Positions 6,201 to 56,584 of a DNA stretch of 64,000 bases are shown piece after piece; position 1 is the first letter of the stretch, and each line of letters starts with the position of its first letter. The DNA lies in assembly GCF_028583425.1 (NCBI RefSeq), contig NC_072791.1, positions 15,891,868 to 15,955,867 on the forward strand. The letters are read 5' to 3'. The position numbers were made by a program, and so were the translations under genes. The notes beneath the pieces are model-generated. The model saw nothing but the letters and a program-made list of their open reading frames with translations. It had not been told where the DNA came from and did not search any database. This DNA is from Eublepharis macularius. Its lineage: Eukaryota; Chordata; Lepidosauria; Squamata; Eublepharidae.

Positions 6201-9200
6201 CCTGAGACCCTGGAGAGCTGCTGCCAGTCTGAGTAGACAACTGTTGGCCTTGATGGAACTATGGTCTGATTCAGTATAAGGCAGCCGCATGTCTGTTTGT
6301 AGGTTTTTGCCGTTGCGTTAGTGCAGCTCTCTTATTTCCAGGTTATGACAAAAGCTGTCCCTGGAAAGCTTTTGTTCCCCTTTTGGGCAAAGCCTTGTCT
6401 CCCCTCCCAGTATCCAGAACCAGTGTGGTGTAGTGGTTAGAGTGTCGGACTAAAATCTAGGAGGCCCAGGTTGGAATCCCCGAGCAGTGCTGTTCTGTTG
6501 GCGCCCTTTGTGCTTATGCCTGATGTATGTCCCTGTAGAAAGGATATAGATACTTAAAATAAACCAGTTTGCTTTGGCAGTTGACTAGATAGCCTGCAGG
6601 TCCCCCCAGAGCCAGCAGCACCCCCGGGTAATCACATGGTTGCCTGCTCTTAGATCTGGCCTTGGTACTAGCTGTGAGCAGGAAGTCCGTAGTTCAAATG
6701 TCAGGCTGGCCATATTCCACAGCAGTGCCGTTGGGGCTGAACTTCAGGTCAGAAATCTGGGGCCCTCGTTCATGGGGAGAGTCTGAATGTTTTATTTATT
6801 TATTTATATTTCAATTTATATACCGCCCATCCCTAGGGGCTCTGGGCGGTGAACAGTTAAAATCGATAAAAACAAGAACTAAAATCAATATACAAACAAT
6901 AAAACAAATTAACAAAGTGCAGTGGTGGGGAGAACCCTCCCCCACCCCAAAGGTGGGAGGCCGACATGGCACCGCCCCCTTCAATCACCAAACGCCTGGT
7001 GGAACAGCTCTGTCTTACAGGCCCGGCAGAACGATAATATGTCCCGCTGGGCCCGGGTCTCCATTGACAGAGCGTTCCACCAGGCTGGGGCCAGGACTGA
7101 AAAGGCCCTGGCCCTGGTTGAAGCGAGGCGGGCTTCCTTAGGGCCGGGGACCACAAGTAAATATTTATTCGCTGATCGAAGCGATCTCCGGGGAACGTAC
7201 AGGGAGAGGCGGTCCCGAAGATATGCCGGTCCCAACCCGCTCAGGGCTTTAAAGGTAAGAACCAACACTTTGAACCTGATTCGGAATTCAACCGGAAGCC
7301 ACTGCAGCTGGCGCAGGACAGGTGTGATGTGTGACTGGTAAGGTATACCAGTCAGGACCCGTGCCGCCGCATTCTGGACCAGTTGTAGTTTCCGGATCAG
7401 GCCCAGGGGTAGCCCAGCGTAGAGTGAGTTACAGTAATCTAGCCTGGAGGTGTTGGGTGTAGCTGGCAAGTGTCAGGCTATGGATGACAGGCTATGGCAG
7501 ATAGACCCCTGTGCCATTACAGCAAGAATCCAGGCTCTTGGTTAAAAGGTTTTATTCAGGAATCAGATCATTTCCACAGATATGTCCATAAGGTTACTCA
7601 GAAGCAAGGTAAGCATCTAAGCAGTAAGAACAGGTTGACAGGAATGGTAACGTGGGAAAACCCTTCCTCTTAACACCCGTGTTTACTCCTTCCCCCTCCC
7701 AACAGTAAAACAGGACTTTTGGCGCAAACTCATCCTGAGAGCGTCTCACATATTTGTACTATCAGGTCGAGACACTGAGAAAGCAAGAGATCAAAGCTGA
7801 GACATAGCAGTGCAGGGGAGTGAGCAATATACAAGGTCAGAAGCACTGAGAGTTTCTACAATTTGTTAGATAAGGCACCTGCAGCTTCAATAAGCCTGTG
7901 AAGGCAAAACAGTTAGGGCATAGGCAATATGACATCAAGTTATAGCATGAAACATTGGTTCAGAACAACAGGTCAGCATTAAGTAGTGGCATGGATGGGG
8001 CACAGACATGACAGCAAGCCATATTGAACACAGTGGGACTTAATCCTGAGATGCATAGAATCTAGTTACACTGTGTGTGTGACTTTTTCCATAGAGGTGG
8101 TGAGATGGAAAGAGATCAACTTGTCGCATACTTCTTTGGTGCTTCACATTTGAAGCATTGTCTCAAAGAGGCTCCCTGTGAAGCCAGAATCGAAAATTGC
8201 CCAACTGCACCACCCATAGCCTCACTAGGTAGTCTGTCTGTAGCAGTAGAAAAGAGCAAGAGTCCAGTAACACCTATAAGACTAACAAAAGTTGTGGGAG
8301 AGTGTGAGCTTTTGTGAGCCACAGCTCACTTCTTCAGATACAGCTAGAACACTGTCGGTATATCTTGGAGAGTGGAGTGATTTCAGATGCTGATTACCGA
8401 TGCTGATTTCTCCACACCTACTACCCCTCTGCATATCCCACCGAATCCGATCACGCCTGCCATTGTCATTCACTGGCCATTGTCATTCGGCATCCGAAAT
8501 CACTCTCCAAGATATACTGACAGTGTTCTAGCTGTATCTGAAGAAGTGAGCTATAGCTCATGAAAGCTCACACCCTACCACAAATGTTGTTATTCTTATA
8601 GGTGCTACTGGACTCTTGCTCTTTTCTAGGTGGCCATAAGCAAGCAGCGATCTCAAGTCTCGGCTCCTTGTCTGTGGATCGTAATTCTGACTCCCTTGTG
8701 GGGCAGTTGTAAGAACTACTGAGAGAACAATTGGATAGTGCTTTGAGCATTTAAGAACAGCACAATATATATGCTAAGTATTGTCAGCGTCAGCCATTTC
8801 ACTACCCGAGCTCACATGTCTCCTACAGAACCCCAAATCACAGGGGAGCATTTGGCTCCAAACCACCATGGCTCGTTTCTGTTCCATGCATGCCAAATAA
8901 GCCGTATTAATGCCAACCTGACTGCTTCCTGGTAGGAGCGTATAATGATGGTGCCTGCACTGCACATTTCATTCAGTCACAAAACCAATGTCAAAATTGG
9001 CAGGTGCCTTTATGCTTCAAATGTAACTTAAATTGCTGAGAATTTCCCCCAGCTGCTACCACTCCCCCCGCCCCTCCTTTCTGGTACCCTATTTTAAACC
9101 CAGTCTTTTGGGAATATCAGCATTAATGTTTCCCTCTCCCGTTGACCAATCTAGACACCAATCTAGACACATCTCAGCATGGTACACCCTGGCTCCTGGG

Positions 9201-12200
9201 TTCTGATCGAAGCATGCATCATCCCATTAAATTGGCTGAAATATTCATAACAGTCTGGATATTATGTAACCTCCTAGAATGAATATTACCAGGCAATTTA
9301 ATGGAGTGTTACAAGGCCATTTGGGACGTGCCACTCCATGCCTATGGTATTATTTTCTAATCTGATCTTGATGGGTTTTATATTACAGATATTACAGTAA
9401 TGGAAGAGGGAGGAGGGGTGATCTCATATGGTTCCCTCCCCCCATACACACAATACACTCCTTCAATTGGATGGCATTTTGTCCTCCCATCACTACCAAT
9501 GGGTCACCGCAGGCATAGAAGAGGAAAGTAGGAAAAGATCCACTTCTGCCACTGGAGTGTCTGTAGGATATAGCCTGGAGTTTCTGAAGTTTCTTTCTTT
9601 GATTTGAAGCAGTCATCTTCAAGGATCCAAGAACATGAGATATTGATCCTGACTCTGCCCTGGGAACTGTCAAACGGACAGGTATTAAGAGTTCTTGGAT
9701 AAAACTTAGATTGCCAGGTGTGCAGGGGGCTGATTTTGATTGGGATCACAGTGCATGGGCAGAAGTGGACTCAAACCTTTTCCTCCACCATTTCCTGACC
9801 TGAAATGGCCTCAGGGAGTTACTATTTGCCCCAATGGGGAAAGTTACATGCAATCCATTGGTATGCATATAGCCCCTCAACTGGGAAATAGCATCTCCCC
9901 AAGGCTGCTTGCCATGGGGGAGACTTAAGCCCCCCCCCCTCCATGCACTGTCGTCTAAATAATTTCCCCTGGGAACTCACAGAACCTGTCTGATTGACAG
10001 TCCGTGGCATGGATCACTCAAAAACAGTACCATTCGTGAAAATAATGTCCCTGGTCTTCTAACCATGGTTAGGATATCTAATCGGGTGCATGCTGGTGGC
10101 TCCCTCCCGCCTCCCTTTTTCCACACGAATGAATTCTCCCACCCCTTTTATAGTTTGCATTAACCCTGATGTGTCCTGACGTCTGCACTGATGCTAACCA
10201 TGGCTCATGCAAACCTGATTCTCTCACAACCAGGATTTCCTAAATCTCAATCCCTGGTTTCCAGTTAAGAGGGGACACCAGTTTATTATTGAGCACGGAG
10301 GAACATGCACTGCTAATCGAAATTATGGAAAGGCGGGAGAAGTTAGCGCTGGAAGGCGTAAGAGGAGGGAATGTGCCTGGCAGCCAAGAGCTGAGCAAGG
10401 GCACATTCTGGTGAAAACGGGTCACATTAGATGGGATTGTCCACGATCGGACCTCCTGCAGTTTTTCTGAGTAATAAAAGCAATGGAGGGGAGAGCCCAC
10501 ATCAGCATCACAAAGGGATGTGCATGAAAATCTGTTCCTGCTGCATCATTTTTCCAACTTCAATTCCTTTCCCATTGTGCTAATTGACCTGTGGTGGGGT
10601 AGATGATATGGACATTCAGGTACTTCACAACTGCTTTTATCATTTAAAAAAACCCCTTCAGCAGTCCTCCTGATTCCGGATTTCACATGAACACATTAAC
10701 CTGCTTCATATGGAATCAGACCTTTGGTTCGTCAAGGACAGTATTGTCTGCTCAGATTGGCAGCTGCTCTCCAGGGTCTCTGGTAGTCATTCACATCATC
10801 TGCTGCCTGGTCCTTTTAATTGGAGATGTCGGGGACTGATCCTGGGACCTTCTGCATGCCACGCAGATGCGGTACTCCTAAGCCCTAGCATCTCTCCTTA
10901 ATAGAGCACATGAAGCTGCTTTATTTTGAACCAGAACATCAGTCCGTCAAGGTAAGTATTGTCTGCTCAGACTAGCAGTGGCTGTCCAGGGTCTCAGCCA
11001 GAGGTCTTTCACATCACCTGGTCCTTTCAGCTGCAGGTGCTGAGGATTGAACCTGGGACCTTTAGCTTGCAAAGTGGATGCTCTATCACTGAACCACAGC
11101 CCCTCCCTTCAAAATCTTAATTGATTTGAGACTGATGGAAGATGAAGATCTTCAAGGTCTTAAAAATCCGTGATTACATTTGAGGATTTAGATGTTCCTC
11201 GTATCGTACATCGAGCATTTGCCGGATAAGGCAGTTCTGCAACCAGACGGGCCTCTTGCCAGGTCACGCCTAATTTTGCAAGCGGCGTTATGAACAAGCG
11301 CCTGTTGGTAACCGTCTGTCTTGGGCTAGCAGCAGCTTGCAAAGTTACGGGGTGGTGCTCTAGTCTACAGCAGGTCCTGTGCAGTTTCTGTTAACAGCCT
11401 TGCATCTAAAGGATTTGTGACAGTGGTTCCTTGTGTATGCTAAGATAAAAAAAGAGGCTGCATGTCATGTCTGAATCCGTATATACAGGGTGCCAGTATG
11501 GTGTAGTGGTTAGAGTGTTGGGCTAGAGACTGGGAGACCCTAGTTCAAGTCCCCACTGTGCCATGGAAGCTCAGCCGGGTGACCTTGGGCCAGTTATCTC
11601 CATTCTGTACCTGTGAAATAGGAACATGAATTTGAGCCAGAGCTCAGAGCTAATAAACCACATTCCCCTGGGGTTGGGAGGTGAGGCAACAGTTGAGATT
11701 CTGAGCTGCAACCATGGCTGAGACTTTGTCAAGCCCTTGCTCGAACACACAACAATCCTCGTCACCAAGTGCAGAGAGTGCCTTCCCAACATTAAGAGCA
11801 AATAGCCATGGTTGCATGTCATGACGTGACATTTGAGAGCTATTAGGGTGCAGTGGTTAAACTTTAGAGCTGGGAGACCCAGGTTCGAATCCCACTCGGT
11901 GACCTCAGGACAGCTACACTTTCACCTTTGCCTTCTTCACAGGGTTGTTGTGAAGGTAAAAAATGGGGAAGGAGAGCACCCTCATCTCCATGGAGTGGCA
12001 AGATAAAAATGTGCTTCATGGATTCGTATGTTCCATCTCGTAGATGATTCTGCCCCAACATTCACATCATGTGTTGTGTGTCCCAATGCAACCAGGGAAG
12101 ATGAGCTGCATGAAGTAGTGTGGTGGTTTTAACTCTTTCCCCTTGTGTTATTTTTCCACTAAAACTCTTTCCCACACATTATAGCATGTTCCCCGATGTA

Positions 12201-15200
12201 AGGGAAAGATTATTCCAAGGTAATAAAAACATCACCAAAAAGTCGAAGACAAAAAAGATAAAAAGGAGGGGAAAAGGAAAAAAAAAGAAATTAAGAATTG
12301 GAGATAATATGGCAACCCCTGCAACTTTCAGACTGGACTGTATTCTATGGCAGTCTATGATTTTTTCCTAATCCAGCCCTTCCTCCGGGATGGCACACAG
12401 AGTTCTCCCCTTCTTCATTTTGTCCTCACAGCAACCTTGTGTGGTATCTGATGAAGGGAGCTGAGATTCTAAAAAGCTCATACCTTGGAAATCTAGTTGG
12501 TCTTTAAGGTGCTATTGGTCCCGGATTTTGCCCTGTGAGGTAGTCTAGGTTGAGCTATCGTTCTGGCTGCAGGCCACCCACCAAGCTTTCATGGCAGAGC
12601 TGGGATTTGAACTTGGCTCTCCCCGATTCTGGTCTGGGATTCTAAATGTTATACCAAGCCCAAGTTGTACCTGTACACTACTTGTTATCCTGTTCTCTCT
12701 ACGCAAAGCCAAGAACTAAATTCCTGGCAGAGTTTCTAATGGGCCTAAACTTCTCTTCAAATTCTGAGAAGCTGCTTCTTCTCTCAAATACTGTCCCATT
12801 TGTTTCTTATAGAGTCTTTCTTTGCTTTAGCAGCCAAGAAAATTCAAGCTAGATCTGTCTCCAGTGAAAGTAATGTTTTTATCTGATTAGATTATTTTAA
12901 TCTGTTGGTATTTGTACATACGTTTATTTGTTGATTTGTATATATGATTCTCTTATATATGTTAGATTGTTTTACGTGTCTGGATTATAACCGCCTTTAG
13001 ACATAGACAAGAAACTTTACCTACCATACTTTCGGGTTTAACATTTAGAAATAAATATTTTTTGTTTAAAAACTAAGCTTCATTTAAAAAGTCATTTGGG
13101 CTAATCTTCCTGTGCCCGTTATCATTTACATTTTGTTGTGTACTTGACAGAAAACCCAGTGCCTTAGAAAAGAAAGAAAAGATGGAGAATCGAATCAAGC
13201 TGGAAGTGACTAAAAAACACTTTGCCCAAACGTACTGCTCCCTCATCCTGGGACTGGGAATGGCTGAGCAACATCACATGGCTTGTGGAAAGTAAGGAAG
13301 CGCCTGTGCCCGGAAAAATGTTTACTCTGATATAATTCAGAGATTGGCAGCACCATGGCCACCCCTTTAGTGGAGCAAATGTTTTAGGACTGAGGTCCCC
13401 AACCTTAAGAACAGCTCTGGAATTTTGAGAATAGGGACTGGGTACCTCCACAAAATGGCTGCCACAGGGGCTGGTCAGGGCCAATACCAAAATGGCTGCC
13501 CTGAAGAGTTGGGCCAATACTAAAATGGCTGCAATTGAAGCCAGAACCCATATAATGTTGCCAGCAAGCCTGGAGAAAAATGCCTCCTTAGTAGAGGCTT
13601 AATATGTGGAAAAGGTCAATTTTGGAGGTAACTAACATCACCTAGTAAATAACATCCCATTAAACCTGTATTTAAGAAATAAGAGGACTTTTTGATCGGC
13701 AACCCTAGGCTCATACCAAAATGGTTGCCTTTGGGGCCAATCATAGTGGCTGCCATGGAGTGCTGGGCCAGTCAGAAAATATTGGATAGTTGCAAGCAAA
13801 CATCCTCTTGTGATGAAGGCAGTCTCCTAGTTTCTTCTCAAACACATCCTGTTCTAGTGACGTGGAGGAAAGCCAGGACTTAATGCTTTGTTTTGGGAAA
13901 AGAGACGCTTTGGGGAAGAAGTAAATGGGTTCCAGGAAACCTACTGGCAGGCACTATGCATTAGGGATTGCTGCTTCAGGGAGTAAAGAAAGGAAGGTAA
14001 ACAGTGGTTTCTGGGCGGAGAGCCTATACCACAATGGCCAACACTATTCCAAAATCCTTGGCTGAAACATGAGGGAGGTTGCCAGGTATTGCTGTGATGA
14101 ATGGTCTGTGTGCCATCTTGCCCTGCGCTTCCCTCATTTCACAGCTCCTTGGCCCTGCTGTTTATCATTTCTTTTCATAATCCTGAATAAAAACGTCTGC
14201 CTAGCCACAAGCATCTGACGAAGTGGCCTTTAGTCCATGAAAGTGTGTACTGGAATAAAAAGGCGCCAGAGAATTCCTGTTTACACAGCCTGATTCTGTG
14301 CCTGGGCCAAATGAGTTGTGACAGTGTCCTTTTGGCTGCTATTTTAAAGATGCTGCGATGTAAGAACCAGGCACCTCCAAACTCCTGTTCTGTGTGCCAC
14401 ACCAGACCCCTTAGGCAGTAGGAAGATGCTGGTTCATTTAATTTACAAGACTCCAGACACAGGCTTAAATAAAATATCTTTTAGTTTATTGGGTACAGTT
14501 ACAGAAAGTGCAAAGCTCTCTGTTCAGGCAATAGACAAGAAAACAAATAACCTTTCTATTGCTAGCTAACAGCTATCTGCCTGTAAACACAGCTTGCTAC
14601 CTGTGCTTCTCTGATCTAGCTTCTTAGCTGGTATGTTCTCACCATTAGGTTCAGCAAAGGAGTCCATTTCCATGGAACTTACAGCCTGAACCAAAATGCA
14701 GTGACTTTGGACAGGGATACAAGGGTTGAATGACGCTCTTCCTTATCCTTACATTCAGGGACACAATCTTGATTGAGCCCTCAGCATCCCCCCCCCCCCC
14801 GCAAGCAGTGGCGTAGCGTAGCCCCAGGCAAGGCAAGTATCTTGGCTTTTCTTTTTTTATTTCCCTCTCGTGTGCGCTTTGCATGCGTGCGCTCTCAGGC
14901 CTGTGTTGATGATGTCACTTCTTGTGATGTCATCGCACAAGACTCCCCCCCCCCCCCGCAGCAGTTGCCTGCCCCACCGCAGCCAGCTGGGCCACGGCAG
15001 GAAGGCCAGCACAGCACCCAGCAAGCCAGCCGCCTCATCAGCATGCAGGCGGTCTCCCCAAGGGCGGAGTACAGTTTCCTCTACCGCAGCCACCTGTGCC
15101 GCCGCAGCCAGCTCAGCCTGCTGCAGGAAGGGTGGCTTGGCGCCCAGTGAGCTGGCCGCCCTGTCAGCTCGCAGGCGGTCAGGCAGCTTCCCCAATGGTG

Positions 15201-18200: not shown

Positions 18201-21200
18201 ACTGTCTTTGCCACCCGTTTGACAGGCATAATTTCTTCTTTAAGAGGCAAAGAAGAAATAAACTTTCTGAGCAGGGATCTCCCTGGCTCTGTAGAGCAGG
18301 GAAATTGACAGAGCCTTCCGATCTCTTTTTAAACTCAGCTTCCCGGCTATCATTGCATCTCCCTTCAACGTGCTCCTCATGTAATTCGTCTCTTGTAGCT
18401 TGGCTCTGAGTTCTCTTCCAAATGAATAGGATACCATTTGTTGTTTTTTTTTAAAAAATTCTTTATTTATACAACTTCCCTCCCCCCCAACTTTACAAAT
18501 TAACAATAAAAAAAGTTATAAACTATTAATAAATCACAGAGATTTAACATGTCATGGAAAAAGGAATATATTACATTACATGAAGGCTAATATTATCCCC
18601 ACTACTCATAAAGTAACTTATCAAGTTCAACTAACAAAACTGTAGACAAATCTATCAGAGATATATGATTGTTTTGTATTGAAAAGGATACTATTTGTAA
18701 TGTACAAAGAGAGAATCACAGGAAAAGACCAATGCAATAGGAAAAGGAAATAGAAAAATTGCAGAGGATACCATTTGGGCAGGGAGAGTAAACTGAGGGC
18801 ACACCAACACAAAGATGGCTTGAGCTTTTAGATTAGATTAGATTAAAATAAAATTAAATTAAAATAAAATTTGAGAAAAATCTGAAATGTAGTTTTCTAC
18901 TTATTTCTGTTGTTTTCTGTTAACACATGAAAAAAGTTAAATACTGAGAACCTAACACAAGTGACAGAAAAGAGCAAGAGTCCAGTAGCACCTATAAGAC
19001 TAACAAGATTTGTGGTAGGGTATGAGCCTTTGTGAGGCACAGCTCCCTTCTTCAGGTACAGCTAGAATGTGAGTCCATCTGTCCTTATATCTTGGAGAGC
19101 GGAATTATTTCAGTTGCTGATTACCAATGCTGATTTCTCCACACCTCTGCATATCCCACCTAATCGCGCCTGCTATTGTCATTTGCCGGTTATTGTCATT
19201 TACCTGCGATTGTCATTCGGCATCTGAAATCACTCCACTCTCCAAGATATAAGGACAGATGGACTCACATTCTAGCTGTATCTGAAGAAGTGAGCTGTGG
19301 CTCACAAAAGCTCATACCCTACCACTAGTTGTGTTAGTCTTACAGGTTCTACTGGACTTTTGCTCTTTTCTACTGCTAGAGACAGACTAACACAGCTACC
19401 CATCTTGAGCTAACACAAGTAAAAGATTAATGGAGACCCCAGCATAATAATTAGGTAGGTTGCTCCCTCCCTCATTTAAAAATAACAAGGTGCCCTCAGC
19501 CTCCACGCTGGTTCACCCCTCCCCAAACATACTGCCTGTTTCATTGGAGGATGGAGAAGGTGTTGGAAGAGGAGGATCCAGCACTCACTCTCTCCTCAGG
19601 TTTCAGAGGGGGACAAACCAAAGAGTTAGAAAGATAGAGAGGCCAGGGCACTCTGTTTACTGTTTTCTGCTCTGACTGTCCTTTAATATGCAGATTGTTA
19701 TTCTCAGGATTTCCTCCTCCTGAGTTCCTCCCTCTCACTCCTTCTCTTCCTAGCTTTGTTCCAGGCAACACCTCCCTCCTTCTCCTCCCTTCATCTTAGC
19801 AGCATGGAGGCAGGCCTTGTCCTAGCATCCATGCCCATCCTTAGACTAGATAGGTAGTTAGGATCTGTCTTCCTTTCCTATCAGAGTATGGAGTTCCTAC
19901 AATAAAGAACTCTCATTTCGTTTCTAAATATAAAGCAAGTGTATGATTTATTATTTTTTCTCCTGCGCACACACCAGCCAGCAGAACGAGCTCACAATAA
20001 CCACCTATAATCACACTTCCTATGCCTAACAATAGACTCTGCTAACGGCCCAAACATGGAATCCTTTAATTAGGTTTCTGAGGCCTACATAACGATTTAT
20101 TTATCAGAAGGTACCTGAAGATGATAGAGGAATGGATGTGGGGAAATGGAAGCACAAAGTCTTATCTCACATAATACCTTCTTTTATTCCTCCCACATTT
20201 CTTATTTTGGTTTTGCAACAAAGATCCTATCCAGATCTCCTGGTTCAGACATGCCCTGGGCTGGGAGCTTGGTTTTCGTGCATACCTGTCAACTCTTTTC
20301 CCCACAGGGAGCCGAGCGAGACAGGAAACATCACTGTCAGAGCAGGCCTGGGGAAAGAATGGAGGACAATCGGGTCATGCTGTTGGGGCATGACCCGGAG
20401 GCCCCAAAAGACAGAGAACAGGGGATGTGGCTGGGGGAGAGAGATGCAAGCAGGGAGGGAACACCAGAGAGGAGAAGAGGATTCTGGGGAACGTCATGAA
20501 AAGGGACAGGTGAGATGACGGCTGGGATCCTCAGACTTTAACACCTGTGTAGAAGTGGGGATTTCATGTAGCTTTTCACAAACTGCCACTGGCGCACCTT
20601 GGTCTCTGCTTTCTGCTGGGAGCTGCTGTCCGGGGAGGGGGCAATAGTTCAGGTTCTGCGTGCCTGTATGAGCTCACGTGCCGTCCCTGGCGTTTCTAGT
20701 TAGAGGATGTCCAGTGGGAGAGCTGCCTGCACAGCCACTGCCACCCAAAGCAAGCGATGCTCCCAATAGGGATGGACTGGCCATAGAGCCTGCTGGGTCA
20801 CTGCCCTGCAGGGCTGCTGGCCGTCAAGAGGAAGTGGGGGCTGCCAGCCCCTTGAATCCTGCCCATGCTAGTTGATAAAGCATCTGCTTTATGGGATCCA
20901 GTTCTCTTCATCAAACACTGGGAGCTCTGTTGGACTCCGCTCTCTTACTGCAGAAAGAGGGGTCTGCAGTGGCCCAAAGTGCCTTTTTAAAAAACCAACT
21001 ACATCTTGCCAGTCAATTCCCCCCTCTTTGGAGACTTCCGATCTGGCCACATGGATCCATGCAATGCTAACCTCAAACCCTGACTACTGTAAAGTGATCT
21101 GTGTGGGGCTGCCCCCAGGAGATGATTTGGAAGTGGTGCAAAATGCAGCAGCCAGTCTTTTCTTGGGAGTGGCCTTGGGAATCGCATCGCACCTGTCTTG

Positions 21201-33200: not shown

Positions 33201-36200
33201 ATTATCCCATGGTTTCTATAAAACAACGTTTTCTTTAAAATGTCCCCTACGATTGAAGGCTTTGGAGGAGTAATTGGCTTTTAAATCTGATATTTAATTT
33301 GTGTATTTACTTCATTTATAGTTTGTCTTTCTCTCTGAGACTCAAGGCGGATTTGAACTAAAGATGGTGCCCTAGGAAAAGTATAATAACACAGCCCACA
33401 AAATTTGAGAACACCTTACTAATAATACTGACAGTAAAGTAGAAATTTCAAGATCAGAGAACAAAGCAATGGAATGGTTGTTGTGGGTTTTTTGGGCTGT
33501 ATTGCCGTGGTCTTGGCATTGTAGTTCCTGACGTTTCGCCAGCAGCTGTGGCTGGCATCTTCAGAGGTGTAGCTCCAAAAGATAGAGATCTCTCAGTGTC
33601 ACAGTGTCTCTCCCTGTGACACTGAGAGATCTCTATCTTTTGGTGCTACACCTCAGAAGATGCCAGCCACAGCTGCTGGTGAAACGTCAGGAACTACAAT
33701 GCCAAGACCACGGCAATACAGCCCGGAAAACCCACAACAACCATCGTTCTCCGGCCGTGAAAGCCTTCGACAATACAAAGCAATGGAACATTACATACAA
33801 TAAATAAAGTAATGCAGCTGGATTATAAAGTTTGGGAACAATGCAACCCCACCCCCAACATAGTATGTACAATGAAGACTACCCTAAATTCCCCTATCAC
33901 ATTGTGCATGTAAAGTGCCATCAAGTTGCATCCGACTTATGGTGACCAGGTAGGGTTTTCAAGACAAGAGATGAGTCGAGATGGTTTGCCATTGCCTGCC
34001 TCTGCATAGTGACTCTGGATTTCCTTGGTGGTCTCCCATCCAAGTACTAACCAAGGCTGACTCTGCTTAGCTTCTAAGATCTGACAAGTACAGGCCATTC
34101 AGATCAGGGGAGCTACCACCTTATTCACTTTATAAGAATGCCTCCGTGAACATTTCCGTTTTGCACGTTCTATGGAATGAGAGAAGTGTGGGAGCCTTTC
34201 TGCCCTCCTCAGGCTGGCCATTCTACCCAGCGGGAGCCACCACTGAGACTGTATGTGTATGGGGAGCTGTCAATCATACCCATTTGCAGGGTAGCACCTT
34301 CAGATGAGCGAAGCTGGCCCAGCAGAGCATAGTGGGAGAGGCAGTCCTGCAGACATGTGGGTCCAAAGCCATTCAGGCTTTGTAGGTGATAGCTAGAACT
34401 TTAAATTGAACCCAGAAACTAATTGCTAACCAATATAGTGACTGCAGAGAAGGTGTAATACACATATTTGGTAGTATGCAGACGAACAGTGCAATCCTAA
34501 GTAGAGTTACTCCAGTCTAAGCCCATTGATTGCAGTGGGTTTAGACAAGTGTAACTGCACTGTAAGTGGACTATGCTCATACTCATAATATGCGTACAAT
34601 ATTGTACAATATAGTTTCAGGTAGGTAGCCGTGTTGGTCTGCATTAGAACAGCAGGGTTTGAGTCCAGTGGCACCTTAGAGACAACAGGATTTTCAGGGT
34701 AGAAGCTCTCAAGAGTCAAATCTCCCTTCTTCAGAATGGATCTCTGTGCAGGGATTTAAAGAACATTCATAACAGGTTCTTCTTTACCTGTGTCCATTCT
34801 AGCTAGTCGAAGGCTGTATTAGACATCATTCTTGTCCTTCCCGTCATGTTTCAGGCAGTCTGTCAGGAAGTATATGTTTTTATCTGTATACTTGTTTGTT
34901 GAGACATCTTAGATTTACAATGAAGTTGGAAAATAGTTCCAGGGATGGCGAGGGATCATAGAACCATAGAGCTGGAAGGGGTCTTAGAGAGCATCTAGTC
35001 CAACCCCCTGCCCAGTACAGGATCAGCCTAAAGCATCCCCGACAAGTATTTGTCCAGCCTTAAAGACTGCCAATGAGGGGGAACTTGTTGAGGATGTCAC
35101 TAACCTTGACATGCTTGTCACAACTGACTTTTCCATGGTTCAAAGGGAACCATGGTGAAAACTGGCAGAACTGTTCCTCACTCCCCACCACCTCCAGAGC
35201 TTATCCCAGGAAACAAAAGGGCTGACTTGCCTTGTATTGTATTTGTACGGAAAGCAGTGGCGGAATGCTTCCGAGTTAGCCCCCACTGCTCCTAAAACAT
35301 TACACCTGTCTGCCTTTACTTTTAACATACTTCTCTTACTCCCTTTAAGGAGCACGGGTGTCAAGCAACCAGCCATAAGGAGTGTCTTGGACCAGCGCTC
35401 GCCGGTGCTGAGCACCTTGCTGCCCATGGCAAAAGACAGCGCTCAGTATCTTTTCCAAGACCATTACCTTCATCCCAGCAAAACTGCCCGCAGCTCGCAG
35501 CTCGATGACCTGCCAGAAATGTCTTCTGTCGTGTCAGAGTCCAAGTAAGGAGTACAGGCCCATTTCACACAATATGGGGCTGCTTAGTCATCAGCATTAG
35601 TCATCGTTATGGGGCAGCTTACATCAGTTCTCGTGGCCCTTCTTACATCAGTTCTCGTGGCCCAAGGTAATGCCAATCGCCACCTTGGGGTCAGGTAGCA
35701 GTTTTCCCCAGGGCTGTTTGGCTAGGGATCCAGGAGGTGTCTTGCTATCTTCTGAGCATGGAGCAGGGGTCACTGGGGCAGTTGGGTGGGGGGCGGTAGT
35801 TGTGAATTTCCTGCATTACGCAGGGGGTTGGACTAGATGACCCTAGAGGTCCCTTCCAACCCTATGATTCTAACGACCACCCAGTGTGCTCTTGACATTG
35901 ATCCCATGTGTGGGTTCTCTGACAAATGCACTTGTACACATTACATCTTACACATCTGCCTAAATGTGCAAAAAGCCTATTGGTTGATGCAGACTGCCTC
36001 TTGTAACATTCTTTATGAATAACTTTCCGGATCTAGAATGCAGTACAACGTAAGATGAACTTTTATTAACTATTTACATAACTTAGAGAGAGAACAAGTA
36101 ACTTGCTATCCCAGCCAGATCTCTCTGCCCATTTTAGCAAAACCCTCTGGGATGTGTAGAACCTGTTAAGCACCACCCACTTAAAGTCATGGTGTCCTCA

Positions 36201-39200
36201 CACCCCCTCATTCCTTCCCCAGCAATAGAAGCAAATTGCACATTTCCACTAGGAACACGTACACAAAGCTGCTTCATGTTGATTCAGACCCTTGATCTGT
36301 CAAGGTCAGAATCGTCTTCTCTGACTGGCAGCTCTCCAGGTTTTCAGGTAGAGGCCTTATTTCTTTACGGAGATAGATCAAGATGGCTAGCCATGTTAGT
36401 CTGTCTGTAGCAGTAGAAAAAAGCAAGAGTCCAGTAGCACCTATAAGACCAACAAAATTTGTGGTAGGGTATGAGCTTTCGTGAGTCACGGCTCACTTCT
36501 TCAGATACTAAAAGAAATGTTGTTATCTGAAGAAGTGAGCTGTGACTCATTAAAGCTCGTACCCTACCACAAATGTTGTTAGTCTTATAGATGCTACTGG
36601 AGTCTTGCTCTTTTTTATTTCTTTATGTTATTTATAGTCCGCCTTTCTCACTGAGACTCATGGCGGATTACACAATATGAAGCCCCTTCTGCGCTGGGGA
36701 CGTAACTCCTCACTTTCCCTGAAGTCAAGCCAAAAGGCATGGAATCAGCTTGTAGGTGGCCGTTCACACCTCTCATCGGAGCTGTGATGAATCGCTGGCA
36801 AAGCTCCGTTGCTGCCTCCTTCTCTGTTGCCCCCAAGCATCTGTTTCTCCATCATGGGATAAAAAGAGAACCTAAAACTCAATTATTTCTGATACCCAGA
36901 TATTTAGCCCCCTATAAAATATTCCCACCAGTGCCAAAGCGAAAAGAATAAAAAGAGAACTTCCTCCTGTCTGCTTTCAAACCAGCGATTCATCCATCCT
37001 GCGCTGGTCTTTAAAAAAAAATTTAAAAGAGGAAAGAGGGGAGGAGAGGAAGGGGAGAAGGAATGGTTGGCTAGATGGAAGTAGCCAATCACAAACAATG
37101 CAGGGGGCCGGCAGGGGGCAGGAGAGGGGGGGGAAGAGGGTGGAACACCAAACATGGAATTATCATTATCATTATCATCTCCCTGTATGCACCCTGTAGG
37201 GTGCTGGGATCAGTAGGTAAACACCTGCTGGTGGTCCCTGGCCCCAGGGAGGCTCAACTGGCCTTGAGCAGGGCCAGGGTGTTTTCGGTCCCAGCCCCGA
37301 TCTGGTAGAATTCTCTTTCGAGGGACACTCGGGCCCACCAAGATCTTACATCCTTTTGGCGGGCCTGCAAGACGGAGATCCTCCGTCAGGCATATGCCAG
37401 CATTAAATCCACCGAATGAGTCTCCCTGCCAGTCTCCTACTTGTGTGTGTGTGTGGGCTACTTGGCCATCTGCCCCCCACGCACGAGCAGCCACAGGATC
37501 CCAATCTACACCTCCACCTTCTTTCATATATGGTGAGCAGGTGAATTGCTGAAATGTTGTGTTTGTGAGATTTGTGATTTTATCGTTCACTCCTGTATAT
37601 TTTGCTGATTATTGTAACCCACCTTGAGCCCGCTTGCAGGGCGGGCGGGCTATAAATTAAATTAATAATAATAAAAGAAAGGAATAAAGAGTATGCATGG
37701 GGAAACAGCCTACCGCAAAGTGGATTTTTAAAAAAAGTTGGGGTATAAACGCTCCCAGGAAAGCTGGAGAAAAGCCGCATGGTGGCTGGAGTGACTCCTC
37801 ATGGCAGCAAATCTGGTGCAGACGGTCATGAAAAAGTGCTGCAGGATGGGAACTGAACCGGCTAAATAGACCCGTGCAGACTCAGCTTCAGTCAGTGCAG
37901 TGCAGTGCAGTGAATGTCCAAGACATTCAAATTGGCTATTTGCATATACATGCAAATTGGCAAAAATTTAAAACCAGCGGAAATCCAATACGGAGCTGAA
38001 GAAATGCTGAAACAGAGCATAAGCAATTCTATGATGGACATATTAAACGACACAGGAACTACTGAGTAGGATCATATTTATAACAAAAGTAGTGAAGTCT
38101 ATGGGCCGTCAATATTTACTGCAAGAGTAGTAAAACCTGTAGTCCCTCCCTATCCCTTTACTGATGGATCTGTTTGAGACAATTTCCTTACAGTTCAGCT
38201 CTCCTATCTGACAGTTTCTCTACACCTTACAAAGTCCCTAGGGATGCTCAAGTGCCCCTCATTTCACGTGTCCCCCCCTCCAATTTTCCACGCACTCGCT
38301 CACACAGTCACATTTCAATTTGTTCCTCATGAATACATTCATGCGTTGGATGTCAGTTCTTCCTCAACTTTTAAAAGTATCCCAGTTTCTGCCACCTCCC
38401 ACATCCATTAATTGAAATGCAGATCTTGACAGTTTCTCACACCTTAAAGAAATGCAAATTGGCAAGTCAAAGGAGCCTAGAGTACTTGTTCTCTCAGTTA
38501 AAACAGAGCTGAATTGGCACTTTGCCCTCCAGAGTCACTCGCAGATGCAGTCACCCAAAGAGAGCGCCCATGAAAGCAGCATTCACACATGCTAAGCAAG
38601 AACAGTCTGCATGTGAACTCAGGGCCGGATCGAGGGGGGGCAGGGGGGGAGTCTGCCCCCGGTGCCGCCAAGTAGGGGGCACCGGGCACAGCTGCCAGCT
38701 GCTGGGAGCGCATGGGTGGCAGCATGGGCGGCCTCCCAGCCCTGCAGACACGCCTGCCCTGCAGACAGGGGGTGGCCGGCTTGCTGTGCGCCCCCTGTCC
38801 TGCGGGTCAGGCAAAAGGCAGCGCAGGGGGCTGGGAAGCCACCCGCACTATTCACCTGCCCCACAGGACAGGGGGCGGCCCAGCCCCCCGTACTGCCTCT
38901 GCCAACTCCGTGGTGCACCGGAGCACCCAGCTTGCTGCGCAGGTGGCACGCTCCACCCTGCACAATGACGTCACGGAAGTGACATTATCATGCAGCACCG
39001 GGAAGGGGGCGGTTGCCCTGGGCACTGGCAACCCTAGATCCGGACCTGAACTGAGGACCACATACAAAATCCTGCAGTTGAGCATACCTGGGTCATTTGC
39101 AACGTGTAGAGAGAGTCAAGAGCTCTCTCGAATAGTTCAGTTTTGCTTCGTTTGCAGAAGGCCAGGAGAGTGTGAGCTTTCCTGACCTCCGCAGGTAGAC

Positions 39201-43285: not shown

Positions 43286-43299
43286 GGGCATAGGCTGGA

Positions 43300-44734: not shown

Positions 44735-44940
44735 AGTTGCAGCAAAAATCTGGAGGCACATCAGTCTTGCAAACTATTTCAGCATAAGCGTAAGTCAGAG
44801 CTCACTTCATCAGACACAGGGAGTGCACATCCACGGGATGTCTAGTCATACTTAAAGTTACATTCTGAGGGTTAGCTGTGTTAAATCGGTTGCAAAAAAA
44901 CTGAACAGCAGTTCAGTGGCACATTAAAGGCTAACAGTCC
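44735..44940. repeat. Diverged relatives of the fold-back arm family
   Basis: TTGCAGCAAAAATCTGGAGGCAC, AGAGCTCACTTCATCAGAC, and AACAGCAGTTCAGTGGCAC: two degraded single-arm copies. Confidence 0.5.
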
Positions 44941-44989: not shown

Positions 44990-45365
44990 TCACGTTATAT
45001 CTGACTTATGGCGATCCCAGGTGGCGTTTTCGTGGCAAGAGACTAACAGAGTCAGTAGAAAAGAGCAAGAGTCCAGTAGCACCTATAAGACTAACAACAT
45101 TTGTGCTAGGGTATGCGCTTTTGTGAGTCACAGCTAAAGAAGTGAGCTATGACTCATGAAAGCTCATTTCTTCTTTTCTACTGCTACAGAAAGGCTAACA
45201 GGGCTATCCATCTTGATCTAACAGAGGCCGTTTGTTATTGCCTGCCTCTGCAGCCCTGGTCTTCACTGGAGGTCTCCCATGCCAATTACTAACCAAGACC
45301 AACCCTGCTTAGCTTCTGAGAGCTGACAAGGATCAGGCTCACCTGGGCTATCCAGGTCAGGGTGT
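44990..45365 (-). mobile_element. 5S-rRNA-derived SINE split by a fold-back retroposon
   Basis: Left part TATCTGACTTATGGCGATCCC, right part GTCTCCCATGCCAATTACTAACC and CCTGCTTAGCTTCTGAGAGC. The gap is filled by F4 with its duplication CTAACAGAG. Confidence 0.85.
45052..45217. mobile_element. Fold-back retroposon F4, nested
   Basis: AGAGCAAGAGTCCAGTAGCACC on the left arm, with a deleted right arm ending GCTACAGAAAGGCTAACAGGGC. Perfect 9-bp duplication CTAACAGAG at 45043-45051 and 45218-45226 inside a 5S SINE, so the boundaries are secure. Confidence 0.9.
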
Positions 45366-46560: not shown

Positions 46561-46579
46561 GATAACATAACAACCCCCA

Positions 46580-48055: not shown

Positions 48056-48063
48056 ATTCTAAG

Positions 48064-48815: not shown

Positions 48816-48954
48816 AATCCATATGCAAAAGAACCTCCTCAGGATACAGTGAAGCTTCCCCCCATTGGCATGCCAAAACCTGGGAACCTTACAGGATGTC
48901 TCAGCCCAAACCCACCTTCCTGAGTAGATATAAATCACCTGCTAACATCTTCTC

Positions 48955-49105
48955 CACACATTGACACTGAGTGGTTTCTGTCTTTCGGTACTACACCTCT
49001 GAAGATGCCAGCCACAGCTGCTGGCGAAACGTCAGGAACTACAATGCCAAGACCATGTACAACAACTAATGTCCTCTGGCCGTGAAAGCCTTCGACAATA
49101 TATCC
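48955..49105 (+). mobile_element. Single-arm relative of fold-back F8
   Basis: ATTGACACTGAG ... CACCTCTGAAGATGCCAGCC ... CGTCAGGAACTACAATGCC ... GTGAAAGCCTTCGACAATA, colinear with the right arm of F8, without an inverted partner. Carries a hammerhead-like core at 48999-49029 (CTGAAGA, T, GCCAGC/GCTGGC stem, GAAA). Confidence 0.82.
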
Positions 49106-49344
49106 TGCGCTCCTAACCACTACACCAAACTGGCTGTTAGTCTTGAATGTGCCACTGGATTCGTCTTGTTTTGCAGTTTGCAGCCTACCTCACTCTCCTG
49201 TATGTGTGATAAATCCGGGGTGGGTTCTGTGGAAGGGGTAGCAATTGGGGCTTGGCTTGCCCGGCAGCACTGTGGAAGGTTTGCACATGCTCAACAGCCC
49301 CACCTGCTGGCCAGCATCGTGCAGGTGCTTTTGGAGAGTAGCTG

Positions 49345-49690: not shown

Positions 49691-49712
49691 GGATTCAAAC
49701 TCTGGTCTCCTG

Positions 49713-49914
49713 GCCGTAGATCCAGAGCGCCGTGTTAGTCTGTAGTAGCAAAATCGAAAAGTGTCCAGTAGCACCTTTAAGACTAACCAACTTTACTGTA
49801 GCCTAAGCTTTCGAGAATCACAGTTCTCTTCGTCAGATGCAAGAGAACTGTGATTCTCGAAAGCTTATACTACAGTAAAGTGGGTTAGTCTTAAAGGTGC
49901 TAACTGGACTGTTT
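49713..49914. mobile_element. Fold-back retroposon F5
   Basis: Left arm complete (GATCCAGAGCGCCGTGTTAG), loop of a few bases, right arm truncated. Perfect 12-bp duplication TCTGGTCTCCTG at 49701-49712 and 49915-49926. Hammerhead-like core on the minus strand at 49809-49836 (CTGACGA, A, GAGAA/TTCTC, GAAA). Confidence 0.93.
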
Positions 49915-50216
49915 TCTGGTCTCCTGATGGCTCTCACATTGCTAGGGCTGCTGTTACAGAAAAATTCATCAAAAATATAATCACATTCATGTAACCTAAG
50001 CCAAGAATGGTCTTGCTGCTAGGCAAAAGAAGACGTACCTCCTTTGCAAAGCATGCTTGAGATCCTGGCGGACGTGGGAACGTCTTCTGATGGAATCTTA
50101 GACATCCGACAGGGCCTCTGTGATTCATCAGAAACATCGCCGGCATTCCAGGCACCGCAGACTTCTGGCAAGTTAAAACTCAAGTTAAAACCCAAGTTGC
50201 AGTGGACTCTTAGGCC

Positions 50217-50459
50217 CAGGGCTTTTTTTCAGCTGGAACACAGTGGAACGGAGTTCCGGAACCACTTGAAAATGGTCACATGGCTGGTGGCCCCACCCCC
50301 TGATCTCCAGGCAGAGGGGAGTTGAGATTGCCTTCCGGAGGGCAATCTGAACTCCCCTCTGTCTAGAGATCAGAGGGCGGGGCCACCAGCTATGTGACCA
50401 TTTTCTCCAAAGGCAACCCACTGAGTTCTACCACCTCTTTTCCCAGAAAAAAAGCCCTG
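50217..50459. mobile_element. hAT-type MITE, CAGGGCTTTTTTTC family, copy 5
   Basis: Perfect 8-bp duplication CTTAGGCC at 50209-50216 and 50460-50467. 243 bp, with a small deletion at the internal dyad. Confidence 0.94.
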
Positions 50460-50469
50460 CTTAGGCCCA

Positions 50470-52640
50470 AATAGAGCTTTTCTCTGAATCGAGCACGCTT
50501 TCCAGCATCAGAGCTTACCAGTGGGGAAAACTGCCTGATGGGGCCAGGATTTGAGGTAGTAATCTGCAGGCGTGTGAAGGGTTCTACACACAGACCCGTC
50601 TCCCTCTTCCTCTGTTAGTGGAGCCGCTCAACGTTAAAACATGAATCTGCTGCTACCGTGTCTCCTTTGGAGCTTGGATTGTGAAAGTCTAAAAATTGCC
50701 CACCTCAGAGAAGCCCACTCCCAGTATTTTTACATGCACATGTCATTGTTCTAAATATGCCCCCTTGTTGAAAGGAGACAAGCTTAGAACAGGGACTCAT
50801 GCAAGCACACAACACGCAGACTCCTTTGAGGGTGGGCAATTGTGCCTTGGTATTGGGAGTGCTTGAATGCTCAATGTACAAATGGGACAGAATTACTACC
50901 TCCACTGGAGATTGTTTGGAAGGAAGTAGGACCAGGGTATCATGCAGAGACATAGTGGAAGCTTCCTTCATGTATAATTGGGCATAATTAAAGAAGCCTT
51001 TAAAATGATATAACAAATGGATTGCTCAGGACATACTAGAAATTATTGCCAGCTTCCTTTGGAGGAGAGAGAAACGGAGCCCACTGGAGGCTTACGGATT
51101 CCTGTTCATATAACATACTAATTAACATACTAGAATCACAGCAACATCAGTGCAGCAGGTCCCAAATTTCAATGCACAGTAGAAGCCAAACACTTCAGGC
51201 AATCTTTCAAAAAGCGGCTGAAAAGCAAAGGGACAGAAGAACCCTAAAGCTCCGAACCAGCTTTGATCATGTGCAATAAGCAAGCGGCTGGCTGGGGCTG
51301 CGTATTCCAACCTTTACCAAAAGATGCATCCAGTCCTTTCACTGGGTGCCCTGATGAGCATTGCAATGGGCGTAGCAATGCACTTGTGCACAGTGTGTAT
51401 TGTCAGTACATGTGCAAACATGCAGCTCCACTTTGCAGGACTGGAGTACAAGAGTATGAACAGATTATAAAGAGCAGCTCTACTGAATCAAAAATCTGTT
51501 TAGTCCAGCATTCTGTCTCCAACAGTGGACAGCTTGATGCTCCCAGAAGGCTTACAAGCGGGGCATGGGGGGCCAAGGCATCCCCTTACTGGTACCCCCC
51601 AACACTGGTATTCAGAGAATCACTGCCACTGAATAAGGAGGCTCCATTCGAGCATCGTGGCTAATAGCAAAAGGGCAGCTGGTTATTCTGTTGTAGCAAA
51701 ATAAAACAGCCGTCTGGGAGCACCTTAAAGACTAACATCGATTTCAGCATGAGCACATACAAAGAGGAAATTGTTTTGGAAATTCTTATTGGTGAAGATT
51801 ACAGAAGGGGGGGAGGTGAGGCAGAGAAAAGCTAGGTGTGAATCCTATCACAAATCTTTCCAGTGTGGTTCAGGGCTAATAGCCATTGATGTGCCTATCC
51901 CCCATGAACTTGGCTATTCCCCCTCTAAAGCCAAGTAAACGAGTGGCATCACTACATCCTGCAGCAGTGAGTCCCACAAGTTAACAGACGCTTTGAGCGA
52001 AGGAGCGCTTCTGTCTCCTGCGTGTAATAGGAGTAGTGAACTGTGTCTGCTTTAAATACATCAGTGGGTTTACAATATTTTGCAATAGCTTTGTCTTGCA
52101 GTGGCTATAACTTGGGCCCCTGAGAAAAGGATGAATGATAAGAACAACCCAGGGTTGCTTCACTTTTCATGGGACATGCTTCTGCAGTTTCCCTATCCCT
52201 TTTATGTCCATGAAAGAAAGATATTTCTGAATGGCGAGCTGCTCTTAAACACACAGGAGCTTGGTGAACAAAAGGTAGCAACCATACCAGCATCAAGGCA
52301 GCTAACTAGTATAGCATGCGCCACTTGGAGACAGCATATAAGAACTTTAAAAAGATGTTTTTAACAGGACTTCCTAGTTGGTAAGAGAAAGGTTTTGGTG
52401 CCCTCTGCTGCTTGTTTGATGTTACTACAGGGGAAGGTGGGAGGACCATTGTCTGTATAGCCGATGGTTTGTTATTAGGCCAGGATGATTGGACTTTAAT
52501 CAACAGGAGCAAACGGCAGAAGTTCTCTTCAAAGCAAGCAAGAAACGGCAGTTACAATCCTAAAGAACCCCAAATACTAAAATGCACACGCACAAGCAAC
52601 CCCACCTATCTCCTTCTTTTTAATACGAACATTTACAATT
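50470..52640. other. Intergenic, mostly unassigned
   Basis: About 51690-51770 (TGTAGCAAAATAAAACAGCC and GGGAGCACCTTAAAGACTAAC) is a diverged single-arm relative of the fold-back family. No gene recognised in the remainder. Confidence 0.4.
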
Positions 52641-52649
52641 CTATTCCTG

Positions 52650-52860: not shown

Positions 52861-52974
52861 TTTAAGATGTCGACAGAACAGCATATAAACGTGAACAATT
52901 ATGCCCCAAGTTTTCAGGATGTTTGTGAAAGTCTGCCAGGAGACTGAAGAAGAGCGGCCCCTTAAAACAGGAAA

Positions 52975-53028
52975 ACTACTACTGCCCACTACTACTACAT
53001 CCCACTACTACTACATCCCACTACTGCC
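52975..53028. repeat. Short tandem repeat
   Basis: About three imperfect units of CCCACTACTACTACAT, with internal CTA triplets. Confidence 0.75.
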
Positions 53029-53264
53029 ATGAGCTCAGTAAGTGGCCTTGAGTCAGCCCCTCCTCTCAACCCCAGCTCCCCAGCTGTTTTGTGGATATAA
53101 TAGTAAGACTAACTTGTTTTTTAAAACAAATTATTAATAAATTACACATTACAAACAGGAAATGGTAAACTCGCCTAAAGTCATCAGGTTGGGCGATGTC
53201 CTCAAATGAGACCTGAATTCAGATTGAAATGGGACTAGATAATCTGTCTCCTCCTAATTTCTTA

Positions 53265-53715
53265 CACTTTAATTCAGAAAACTTTCATCTCTGTGTTTGG
53301 CTTTATGCTAGTTTTCAACTTTGCAGCTATCGTACCCGATTGTATCTTTCACTGAATGTCCCAACTATCGATCATATTATATTTTTGCTCCCTGAATGTC
53401 CTAGCTATTGATTATAGTGTATTCACTTGCAGTATGTATTCTGCCTAGGGTTGCCAGCTTCCAGGTAGTGGCTGGAGATCTCCCAGAATTACAACTGGTC
53501 TCCAGGCCACAGAGATCAGTTCAACTGGAGAAAGTGGCTAATTTGGGGGGTGTACTCAATGGAGTTATGCCATGCCAAGGTCCTTTCCCTCCTCAAAACC
53601 CACTTTCTCCAGGTTTCATGCCCCAGATCTCCAGGAATTTCCCAACTTGGAGCTGGCAACCTTAATTCCGCTTTGGATCTCAGTGAGAAAGGTGGATTAT
53701 AAATAAACAACATAA
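53265..53715 (+). mobile_element. L2-like LINE 3' tail split by a MITE
   Basis: GTACCCGATTGTATCTTTCAC ... TGAATGTCCTAGCTATTG, then after the MITE CAGTGAGAAAGGTGGATTATAAATAAAC. Matches 560-720 of the first LINE. Confidence 0.78.
53446..53664. mobile_element. AGGGTTGCC-type MITE nested in a LINE tail
   Basis: TAGGGTTGCCAGCTTCC ... GAGCTGGCAACCTTA, flanks ATTCTGCC (53438-53445) and ATTCCGCT (53665-53672), 6 of 8. Boundaries confirmed by continuity of the LINE. Confidence 0.83.
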
Positions 53716-53719
53716 TGTA

Positions 53720-55826: not shown

Positions 55827-55839
55827 TGATTTGCAACAT

Positions 55840-56274
55840 CAGAAAGAGTCCAGTAGCACCTTTAAGACTAACCAATTTTATTGTAGCATAAGCTTTCGAG
55901 AATCAAGTTCTCTTCATCAGATGCATGATACAAACTGGTCAAATACAGAAGAGGAGGGTGGAGATGGGAGAGAAGGGGACATATATCAGAAGGGGACGGG
56001 ATGCAATTAGCGGGGAGACAACCAAAACATTCCTTTGCTAGTAAATGTTTTGGTTGTCTCCCCGCTAATTGCATCCTGTCCCCTTCTGATATATGTCCCC
56101 TTCTCTCCCATCTCCACCCTCCTCTTCTGTATTTGACCAGTTTGTATCATGCATCTGACGAAGAGAACTTGATTCTCGAAAGCTTATGCTACAATAAAAT
56201 TGGTTAGTCTTAAAGGTGCTACTGGACTCTTTCTGATTTTGCTACTACAGACTAACACGGCTAACTCCTCTGGA
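55840..56274. mobile_element. Fold-back retroposon F6, longest and best preserved
   Basis: Arms of about 190 nt with very few differences, meeting near 56030 (GGGGAGACAACCAAAACATT / AATGTTTTGGTTGTCTCCCC, with a few bases between). Perfect 13-bp duplication TGATTTGCAACAT at 55827-55839 and 56275-56287. The right arm extends about 40 nt further, ending GACTAACACGGCTAACTCC. Two hammerhead-like cores, one per arm. Confidence 0.95.
55894..55920 (-). ncRNA. Hammerhead-ribozyme-like core with canonical CTGATGA
   Basis: Minus strand CTGATGA, A, stem GAGAA/TTCTC with loop CTTGA, GAAA, GCTTATGC. This arm has the canonical U at position 7; the opposite arm (56155-56181, plus strand) has C there. Cleavage strand not identified. 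Confidence 0.4.
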
Positions 56275-56584
56275 TGATTTGCAACATGTACTGCATGAGA
56301 GAAGTCAATCTCAGAAACTCATCTCAGGCCATCAGAAGTGGCAAATCGATGGGTTCTTGTATGGTCATATGGGTTTCACATCACTGAACTTATATTAGAC
56401 AGCCACATCCAAAGACCCCTGAAGCTCTCACACTTCAATTGCGTGAGACTATCTAATCTTTCAGAAAGTGCTCTGGTGAGATTCTTAAAATTATATTTTA
56501 TCTTTTAGATCTAAGATATGTCAGAAAAGGAATTATGACACGTATGCTTACCTGTTTCTGTTATCTTTTACATATGGTAGTATA

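Follow-up and report, generated by a model that had tools for sequence, protein, structure and literature searches.

Head-to-head fold-backs in a Eublepharis macularius locus look like paired 3' ends of Penelope-like elements with a tail on one arm only

In a 64,000-nucleotide stretch of the Eublepharis macularius genome (contig NC_072791.1, positions 15,891,868 to 15,955,867; hereafter the window), eight fold-back structures, F1–F8, each consist of two opposed copies (arms) of a sequence that looks like the 3' end of a Penelope-like element (PLE), joined head-to-head. Such pairs are far more frequent in the host genome than chance nesting would make them, and we found none in which both arms carry a 3' tail. 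These structures are probably PLE insertions, mostly solo pseudo-long terminal repeats (pLTRs, here 5'-truncated 3' ends), made by target-primed reverse transcription from both ends of the target.

PLEs are treated as a third class of eukaryotic retroelements, and the way in which their insertion is completed is unsettled: one paper inferred self-priming on the basis of inverted copies, whereas another observed extension of both strands in vitro. In the passages drawn on here, Arkhipova and colleagues describe endonuclease-containing PLEs of Adineta vaga with inverted pLTRs, target duplications and an optional tail on one pLTR; head-to-head was the commonest order, junctions were palindromic and self-priming was inferred (PMC3846280). 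The corresponding passages on PAc, a Poseidon protein of Anolis carolinensis, report that it cuts and extends both strands in vitro, synthesis starting at two neighbouring sites between which the genomic tail lies (PMC11167929). Inverted pLTRs and 3' extensions also figure as PLE peculiarities in the relevant section of a curation guide (PMC8969392).

The eight structures, each read together with its flanks, lie where a previous sequence-only reading of the window had placed them. An unguided search of the window for inverted repeats of at least 40 nt returned 17, including seven of the eight (F4 was not among them). The orientation is head-to-head, i.e. with the 3' ends outward, in 8/8, and in 8/8 one arm is extended at its 3' end by a tail of about 30–40 nt that is missing from its partner (the tail of F1 is only partial), a feature absent from the sequence-only reading. 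Read in the sense direction, the arms have their 3' end near one of two points: the proximal point lies just after ...CTCTTTT or the family equivalent, and tailed arms run about 30–40 nt further. The parts of the structures, with the remaining copies in the window, are as follows.

8225-8232, unstranded: F1 left target duplication, CTAGGTAG; right copy at 8626-8633, CTAGGTGG, 7/8 matching
8233-8390, minus strand: F1 left arm, 3' end outward, partial tail
8393-8625, plus strand: F1 right arm, untailed; 5' end about 97 nt beyond that of the left arm
18952-18962, unstranded: F2 left target duplication, 11/11; right copy at 19410-19420
18963-19117, minus strand: F2 left arm, untailed
19120-19409, plus strand: F2 right arm, full tail, the longer arm; junction point the same as in F1
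36368-36507, minus strand: F3 left arm, tailed; target duplications at 36357-36367 and 36615-36625
36524-36614, plus strand: F3 right arm, untailed; 16-nt spacer at 36508-36523
45052-45134, minus strand: F4 left arm, untailed; target duplications at 45043-45051 and 45218-45226
45135-45217, plus strand: F4 right arm, tailed; internal deletion of about 45 nt
49713-49830, minus strand: F5 left arm, tailed; target duplications at 49701-49712 and 49915-49926
49841-49914, plus strand: F5 right arm, untailed; 10-nt spacer
55840-56031, minus strand: F6 left arm, untailed; target duplications at 55827-55839 and 56275-56287
56044-56274, plus strand: F6 right arm, tailed; 12-nt spacer
33063-33142, minus strand: F7 left arm, tailed; target duplications at 33050-33062 and 33178-33190; same superfamily as F1-F6
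33143-33177, plus strand: F7 right arm, untailed
33475-33604, minus strand: F8 left arm, untailed; target duplications at 33461-33474 and 33775-33788
33614-33774, plus strand: F8 right arm, tailed; separate family
30357-30497, unstranded: ninth head-to-head pair, degenerate, right side interrupted; a target duplication was looked for and none found
12406-12529, 34617-34758, 44781-44939, 48962-49099, 49119-49187, 51674-51754 and possibly 14207-14257: single or fragmentary copies

The longest exact repeat at the bounds of F1 to F8 measures 6, 11, 11, 9, 12, 13, 13 and 14 bp, respectively. The claim that each structure is bounded by a direct duplication stands for F2–F8, where the duplication is exact over 9–14 bp, and has to be softened for F1, where it is imperfect (7/8, with 6 exact in a row). 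Because only 0.25% of 20,000 flank pairs drawn at random from the window matched over at least 9 (and 0.015% over at least 11), the duplications of these seven structures are well beyond chance; that of F1, on its own, would not be.

The arms had been thought to represent three unrelated sequences, which is wrong: when they were compared with the window by BLAST, those of F1–F4, F5–F6 and F7 aligned with one another, at about 70–86% identity between groups, and make up one superfamily, F8 being the sole different family. The suggested kinship with PLEs, by contrast, is supported by the traits of the copies. Indeed, pLTRs occur in inverted and in tandem order (the latter in L077 and L069, two loci of the genome survey described below), an optional 3' tail of 30–40 bp is evident from the 3' ends, which in both families fall mainly at two points, some being partial, and short target duplications of variable length are present in the families studied. 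As the 38 stretches fetched outside the window show, the arms of F1–F4 are part of a longer element, and F1–F4 are 5'-truncated ends of this element, not a separate hairpin family. A hairpin-specific centre considered for F1 and F2 was dropped, as genome copies revealed this 'centre' to belong to the longer arm, which is extended at its 5' end. Long copies contain, upstream of the 3' part, the end of an open reading frame (ORF) reading ...KLKTMHPPGLNRDLGFLSHYQC, which we take to resemble the end of the Penelope GIY-YIG protein. One of six ORF pieces (that of L054) matched the Pfam GIY-YIG family, with an E value of 0.0099 that is under the curated cut-off, and the other five gave no match; a PDB search with one piece (that of L053) gave no match either.

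The window contains seven instances of a hammerhead-like motif, made up of the core CTGANGA, stem II (preceded by one additional base), GAA and stem I; six of the seven fall within these copies, as compared to three instances over 30 shuffles of the window. We call the motif hammerhead-like, a resemblance that falls short of proof, because the canonical form fits only as a poorer second reading of the two F8-type motifs and because Rfam gave no hammerhead, either at E values up to 10 in 33000-36700 or at the gathering score in the window. No instance of the pLTR motif was found in the bacterial and viral contigs searched. Rfam microRNA matches on the hairpins were below the cut-off and were taken as chance. 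A stem between the tail and the pLTR (GTTAGTCT/AGACTAAC) is visible in several copies; it was set aside, its covariation being no greater than in shuffles.

The host assembly comprises 2.24 Gb in 72 contigs. Genome-wide sampling covered the F1, F3 and F8 queries, leaving aside the families of F5/F6 (B) and F7 (C). For the F1 query the best 40 of 5407 candidates were scored, and 38 stretches outside the window were fetched and classified. For the F3-arm query (93 nt) and the F8-arm query (105 nt), the best 40 of 1274 and the best 40 of 139 candidates, respectively, were all classified, F3 itself (as L056) and F8 included. The candidate counts are lower bounds on copies. Head-to-head pairs account for 23 of the 40 F3-arm loci (24 at a looser threshold, which adds L079), next to 16 single arms and one tandem array (L077), and for 31 of the 40 F8-arm loci, next to nine single arms, among which we counted L109 despite its 9-nt turn-back. 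The F1 query yielded 13 head-to-head pairs among 38, some of them loose groupings of old fragments, and 25 single copies (L020 is the reference itself). By calculation from 5407 copies in 2.24 Gb, about 0.01 of 40 loci would have a neighbour within 60 nt by chance, and a hundredfold undercount of copies would still predict only about one in 40. The sequence-only reading had proposed a comparison with random nesting, and its claim came through with 23/40 and 31/40 against about 0.01/40. A tail-to-tail contact was seen once, within L088. The tandem array (L077:1268-1796) comprises five pLTR units of about 98 nt with a tail on the 3'-most unit only; a separate head-to-head pair lies about 440 nt from it.

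The samples also bear on the target duplications. An exact outer match of at least 10 was present in 5/40 of the F3-arm sample, as compared to 0/1560 cross-locus pairs, and in 23/40 of the F8-arm sample, as compared to 1/1560. In the F8-type pairs L096–L108, picked since the genome search listed both arms of each, the duplication is exact over 12–15 bp in 13/13. Single arms have duplications of their own, of 11, 9, 16 and 13 in L078, L095, L119 and L120, respectively.

The distribution of tails is strikingly constrained: two-tail pairs number 0/23 for the F3 arm, 0/31 for the F8 arm (seven of these pairs being cut at one end) and 0/13 for the F1 query. Taken at the junction, 20 of the 23 F3-arm pairs have exactly one full tail, the partner being untailed in 16 and partially tailed in four, and three have no full tail; if the outermost arm is considered in L062 and L069, exactly one tail is found in 22/23. 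Among F8-arm pairs, 26/31 have exactly one tail and five have none, all five being cut off where the fetched stretch ends; the 24 pairs that are complete on both sides have exactly one tail in 24/24. (L117 and L125 are cut on the untailed side and so are not among these 24; L111, in which an insert divides the untailed arm, and L131, where the pair and its duplication extend up to the edge, were inspected visually.) In the older set of F1-query pairs, one tail is found in 6/13 and none in 7/13. Single copies are tailed in 11/16 cases for the F3 arm (two untailed, three partial), in 12/25 for the F1 query (ten untailed, three partial) and in 4/9 for the F8 arm. Were each arm to choose freely at the single-copy frequency (27/50 tailed), two-tail pairs would make up about 29%; they number 0/47 over the F3 set and the complete F8 pairs. 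The tails therefore indicate that the arms of a pair end at two different reverse-transcription start sites.

At the other end of the arms, the 5' ends behave independently. In the F3 sample the correlation between the 5' ends of paired arms is not significant (rho 0.33, p 0.16, n = 20), and either arm can be the longer one. The untailed arm is longer by at least 20 nt in L057 (36 nt; this arm is partly tailed), L065 (23 nt) and L072 (70 nt), and it is also longer in L062 (judged by the outer arms), L031 and F1; the tailed arm is longer in L061, L066, L070, L073, L086 and L088. Copying of one arm from the other is thus disfavoured, because a templated arm would always lie within its template. 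Arm 5' ends cluster beside the hammerhead-like motif in both families (L056–L095 and L096–L134), which we treat as a lead only, the pile-up in the F3 set being partly due to the start of the query at that motif.

The junctions contain overlap or short filler. F1 and F2 have a common junction, the eight other inverted F1-set loci inspected have other junctions, and within the F3 set most junctions are distinct. Of 55 junctions listed, 11 have a spacer of 0–2 nt and 13 have no definable spacer; eight of the 11 short-spacer cases are one shared F8-family junction (L096–L103). Several F8-family junctions lie at the palindromes CTTC/GAAG and GTGTC/GACAC.

We prefer two-ended target-primed reverse transcription because of the tail rule, the 5' ends and the ability of the Anolis protein to extend both strands from two start sites. 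The endonuclease would nick both target strands in a staggered manner, the stagger becoming the duplication of about 7–16 bp, and each 3'-OH would prime its own complementary DNA (cDNA) on the element RNA. A start at the distal site would yield the tailed arm, and a start at the proximal site, about 30–40 nt inside, the untailed arm. Each cDNA would stop independently, often near the hammerhead-like motif, after which the cDNA 3' ends would be joined, sometimes via pairing of short palindromes, and filled in to give a head-to-head pair. In this scheme we infer that priming takes place twice, as separate events, that an enzyme dimer plays a role and that the cDNAs are joined. A stricter version, which we advance tentatively as possible rather than expected, is that labour is obligatorily divided at a two-strand break: the distal site would always be used by one PLE subunit and the proximal site by its partner, with the result that every two-sided insertion would be head-to-head with exactly one tail and hairpins would be the normal short product.

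These results support the earlier proposals that inversion is a property of the mechanism and that the structures were retroposed, with duplications enclosing both arms. They do not support, as it was stated, the proposal that the hairpins themselves retropose. The hairpin is best seen as mostly formed during insertion rather than moving ready-made, because the junctions are mostly unique in the F1 and F3 samples, the arm 5' ends are independent and the tail rule points to two start sites. A ready-made hairpin may nevertheless have been copied again at times, given that F1 and F2 have one junction in common and that up to nine young copies of the F8 family have another.

Several points weigh against two-ended priming. 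The samples consist of the best-scoring matches to three queries, not of random copies, and the encoding element is identified only weakly, from the putative GIY-YIG end of its ORF. An exact duplication of at least 7 is found in only 11/23 pairs of the older F3 sample, which we put down to decay and uncertain ends, and deletion could account for the short tailed arms seen in L110 and L115. In the window the 5' ends had looked concordant (3/120 permutations were as low, for five loci with hand-read positions), an idea dropped when it was not upheld in the genome sample. Arm identity is 0.911 within pairs versus 0.905 between loci (570/5000 re-pairings as high), and one or two RNAs are indistinguishable because the former is hardly above the latter; shared rare variants are in slight excess within pairs (4 versus 1.3; 60/2000 as high). 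Finally, L096–L104 have nearly one junction (seven exact, two variants), and turn-backs of 9 nt in L109 and about 18 nt in L107, at a CTTC/GAAG palindrome, look like snap-back or template switching.

The turn-backs and the palindromic F8-family junctions are what one would look for if a single strand folded back at a palindrome and copied itself into a second arm, and the passages on rotifer PLEs propose such self-priming on the grounds that head-to-head junctions lie at palindromes (PMC3846280). However, self-priming predicts that the second arm lies inside the first and that the longer arm is consistently the same one, whereas both orders are seen, and it leaves the end of the second arm at the no-tail start site unexplained. 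Spacers of 0–2 nt (11/55) are too small for an ordinary loop, an argument that is weak because 8/11 are a single shared junction. All in all, we consider self-priming an unlikely origin for the pairs; the turn-backs of L107 and L109, together with L111 (where the head-to-head pair contains an insert of about 140 nt and another short inverted piece is present), suggest template switching by a cDNA end. Transcription of an existing fold-back copy, followed by copying of the hairpin RNA as a whole, would account for the junction common to F1 and F2, for the near identity of the L096–L104 junctions, for the resemblance of L109 to a 5'-truncated copy of the L096–L104 hairpin and for matches spanning most of F1 at several loci. 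It is nonetheless quite improbable as the general route: the other eight inverted F1-set loci and most of the F3 set differ in junction, and the shared F8-family 5' end recurs with other partners, in untailed arms that start at or near the shared-junction base (L108, L113, L114 and L115, with L107 also counted among them). Moreover, when L096–L102 are oriented with the tailed arm to the right, five have A and two have T as their centre base, so that the shared junction had at least two origins. Because of this split and of the same start base with other partners, recurrence of the same cDNA end explains the shared junctions at least as well as re-copying of a hairpin.

Two further explanations were weighed. 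Nested insertions of independent single copies find some backing in the existence of single copies and of the L077 array; they are very improbable, as a single duplication encloses both arms, the order is head-to-head, chance adjacency within 60 nt amounts to about 0.01 in 40 and tail-to-tail contact is limited to L088. Hardly credible at all is the assignment to fold-back DNA transposons, i.e. miniature inverted-repeat transposable elements (MITEs) with terminal inverted repeats: the structures do have short palindromic repeats and direct duplications, and other hairpin families of the window look MITE-like, yet their ends are unequal instead of bearing the same terminal repeat, the tail is one-sided, the duplication length varies, the arm truncation points differ and single arms (L078, L095, L119, L120) have their own duplications. 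Twin priming of the type known from long interspersed nuclear elements (LINEs) was ruled out, both arms repeating the same 3' region and not one template in two pieces.

Other features of the window are as follows. An unrelated second family of G+C-rich short palindromes with spacers of 0–19 nt, MITE-like in appearance, is found at 2127-2281, 31591-31745, 50268-50405 and 56662-56782, with fragments near 3337-3687 and 4304-4543; no clear target duplication was seen at its arm ends. A perfect 80-bp palindrome (40/40, without spacer) at 30759-30838 and an inverted repeat with 99-nt arms, 92% complementary, at 39313-39524 each occur once in the window. The ORF at 61226-61768 encodes a predicted TFIIB-type zinc ribbon, its best PDB matches being the yeast TFIIIB 70 kDa subunit, and is a probable first exon of BRF1, an animal-type gene. 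The ORF at 45438-45929 matches RVT_1 (E 2.7e-6, just under the curated cut-off) and is probably a LINE fragment. tRNA-like stretches (30017-30088 and 62216-62287) and a 5S-rRNA-like stretch (34004-34120), all above the Rfam cut-offs, are possibly heads of short interspersed nuclear elements (SINEs).

Pairs of inverted pLTRs that lie within a target duplication and carry one tail have already been published for PLEs; the useful part of the present analysis is the mechanistic constraint. By the end rules, namely that two tails never occur together, that either arm can be the longer and that head-to-head solo pLTRs are abundant, models of insertion can be told apart from genome data. They are also a warning for repeat annotation, as such hairpins are not to be filed as MITEs or as separate families. 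In the portions of the open-licence literature that were searched, we found no count of such pairs in a vertebrate and no link between the tail rule and both-strand extension, which is weak evidence of absence.

Metazoan retrozymes, as presented in the passages cited, resemble the structures described here in being small and in forming tandem copies (compare L077), and carry a type I hammerhead, to which the present motif bears a likeness; they are described there via circular RNAs and tandem repeats, not as inverted pairs (PMC7229834, PMC7761336). PAc of Anolis carolinensis is similar in that two start sites define the tail, and its pLTR has a hammerhead motif; in the passages drawn on, the double extension is not tied to inverted genomic copies, and the main text of that paper uses neither 'head-to-head' nor 'target site duplication' (PMC11167929). 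The Adineta vaga PLEs likewise have inverted, mostly head-to-head pLTRs with palindromes at the junctions and a duplication of 8–10 bp. As described in the sections consulted, they carry an ORF or captured DNA between the pLTRs and are low in copy number, whereas the pairs counted here are mostly of solo pLTRs; and, unlike in the account given for Adineta vaga, the 5' ends in Eublepharis macularius speak against self-priming as the only route (PMC3846280).

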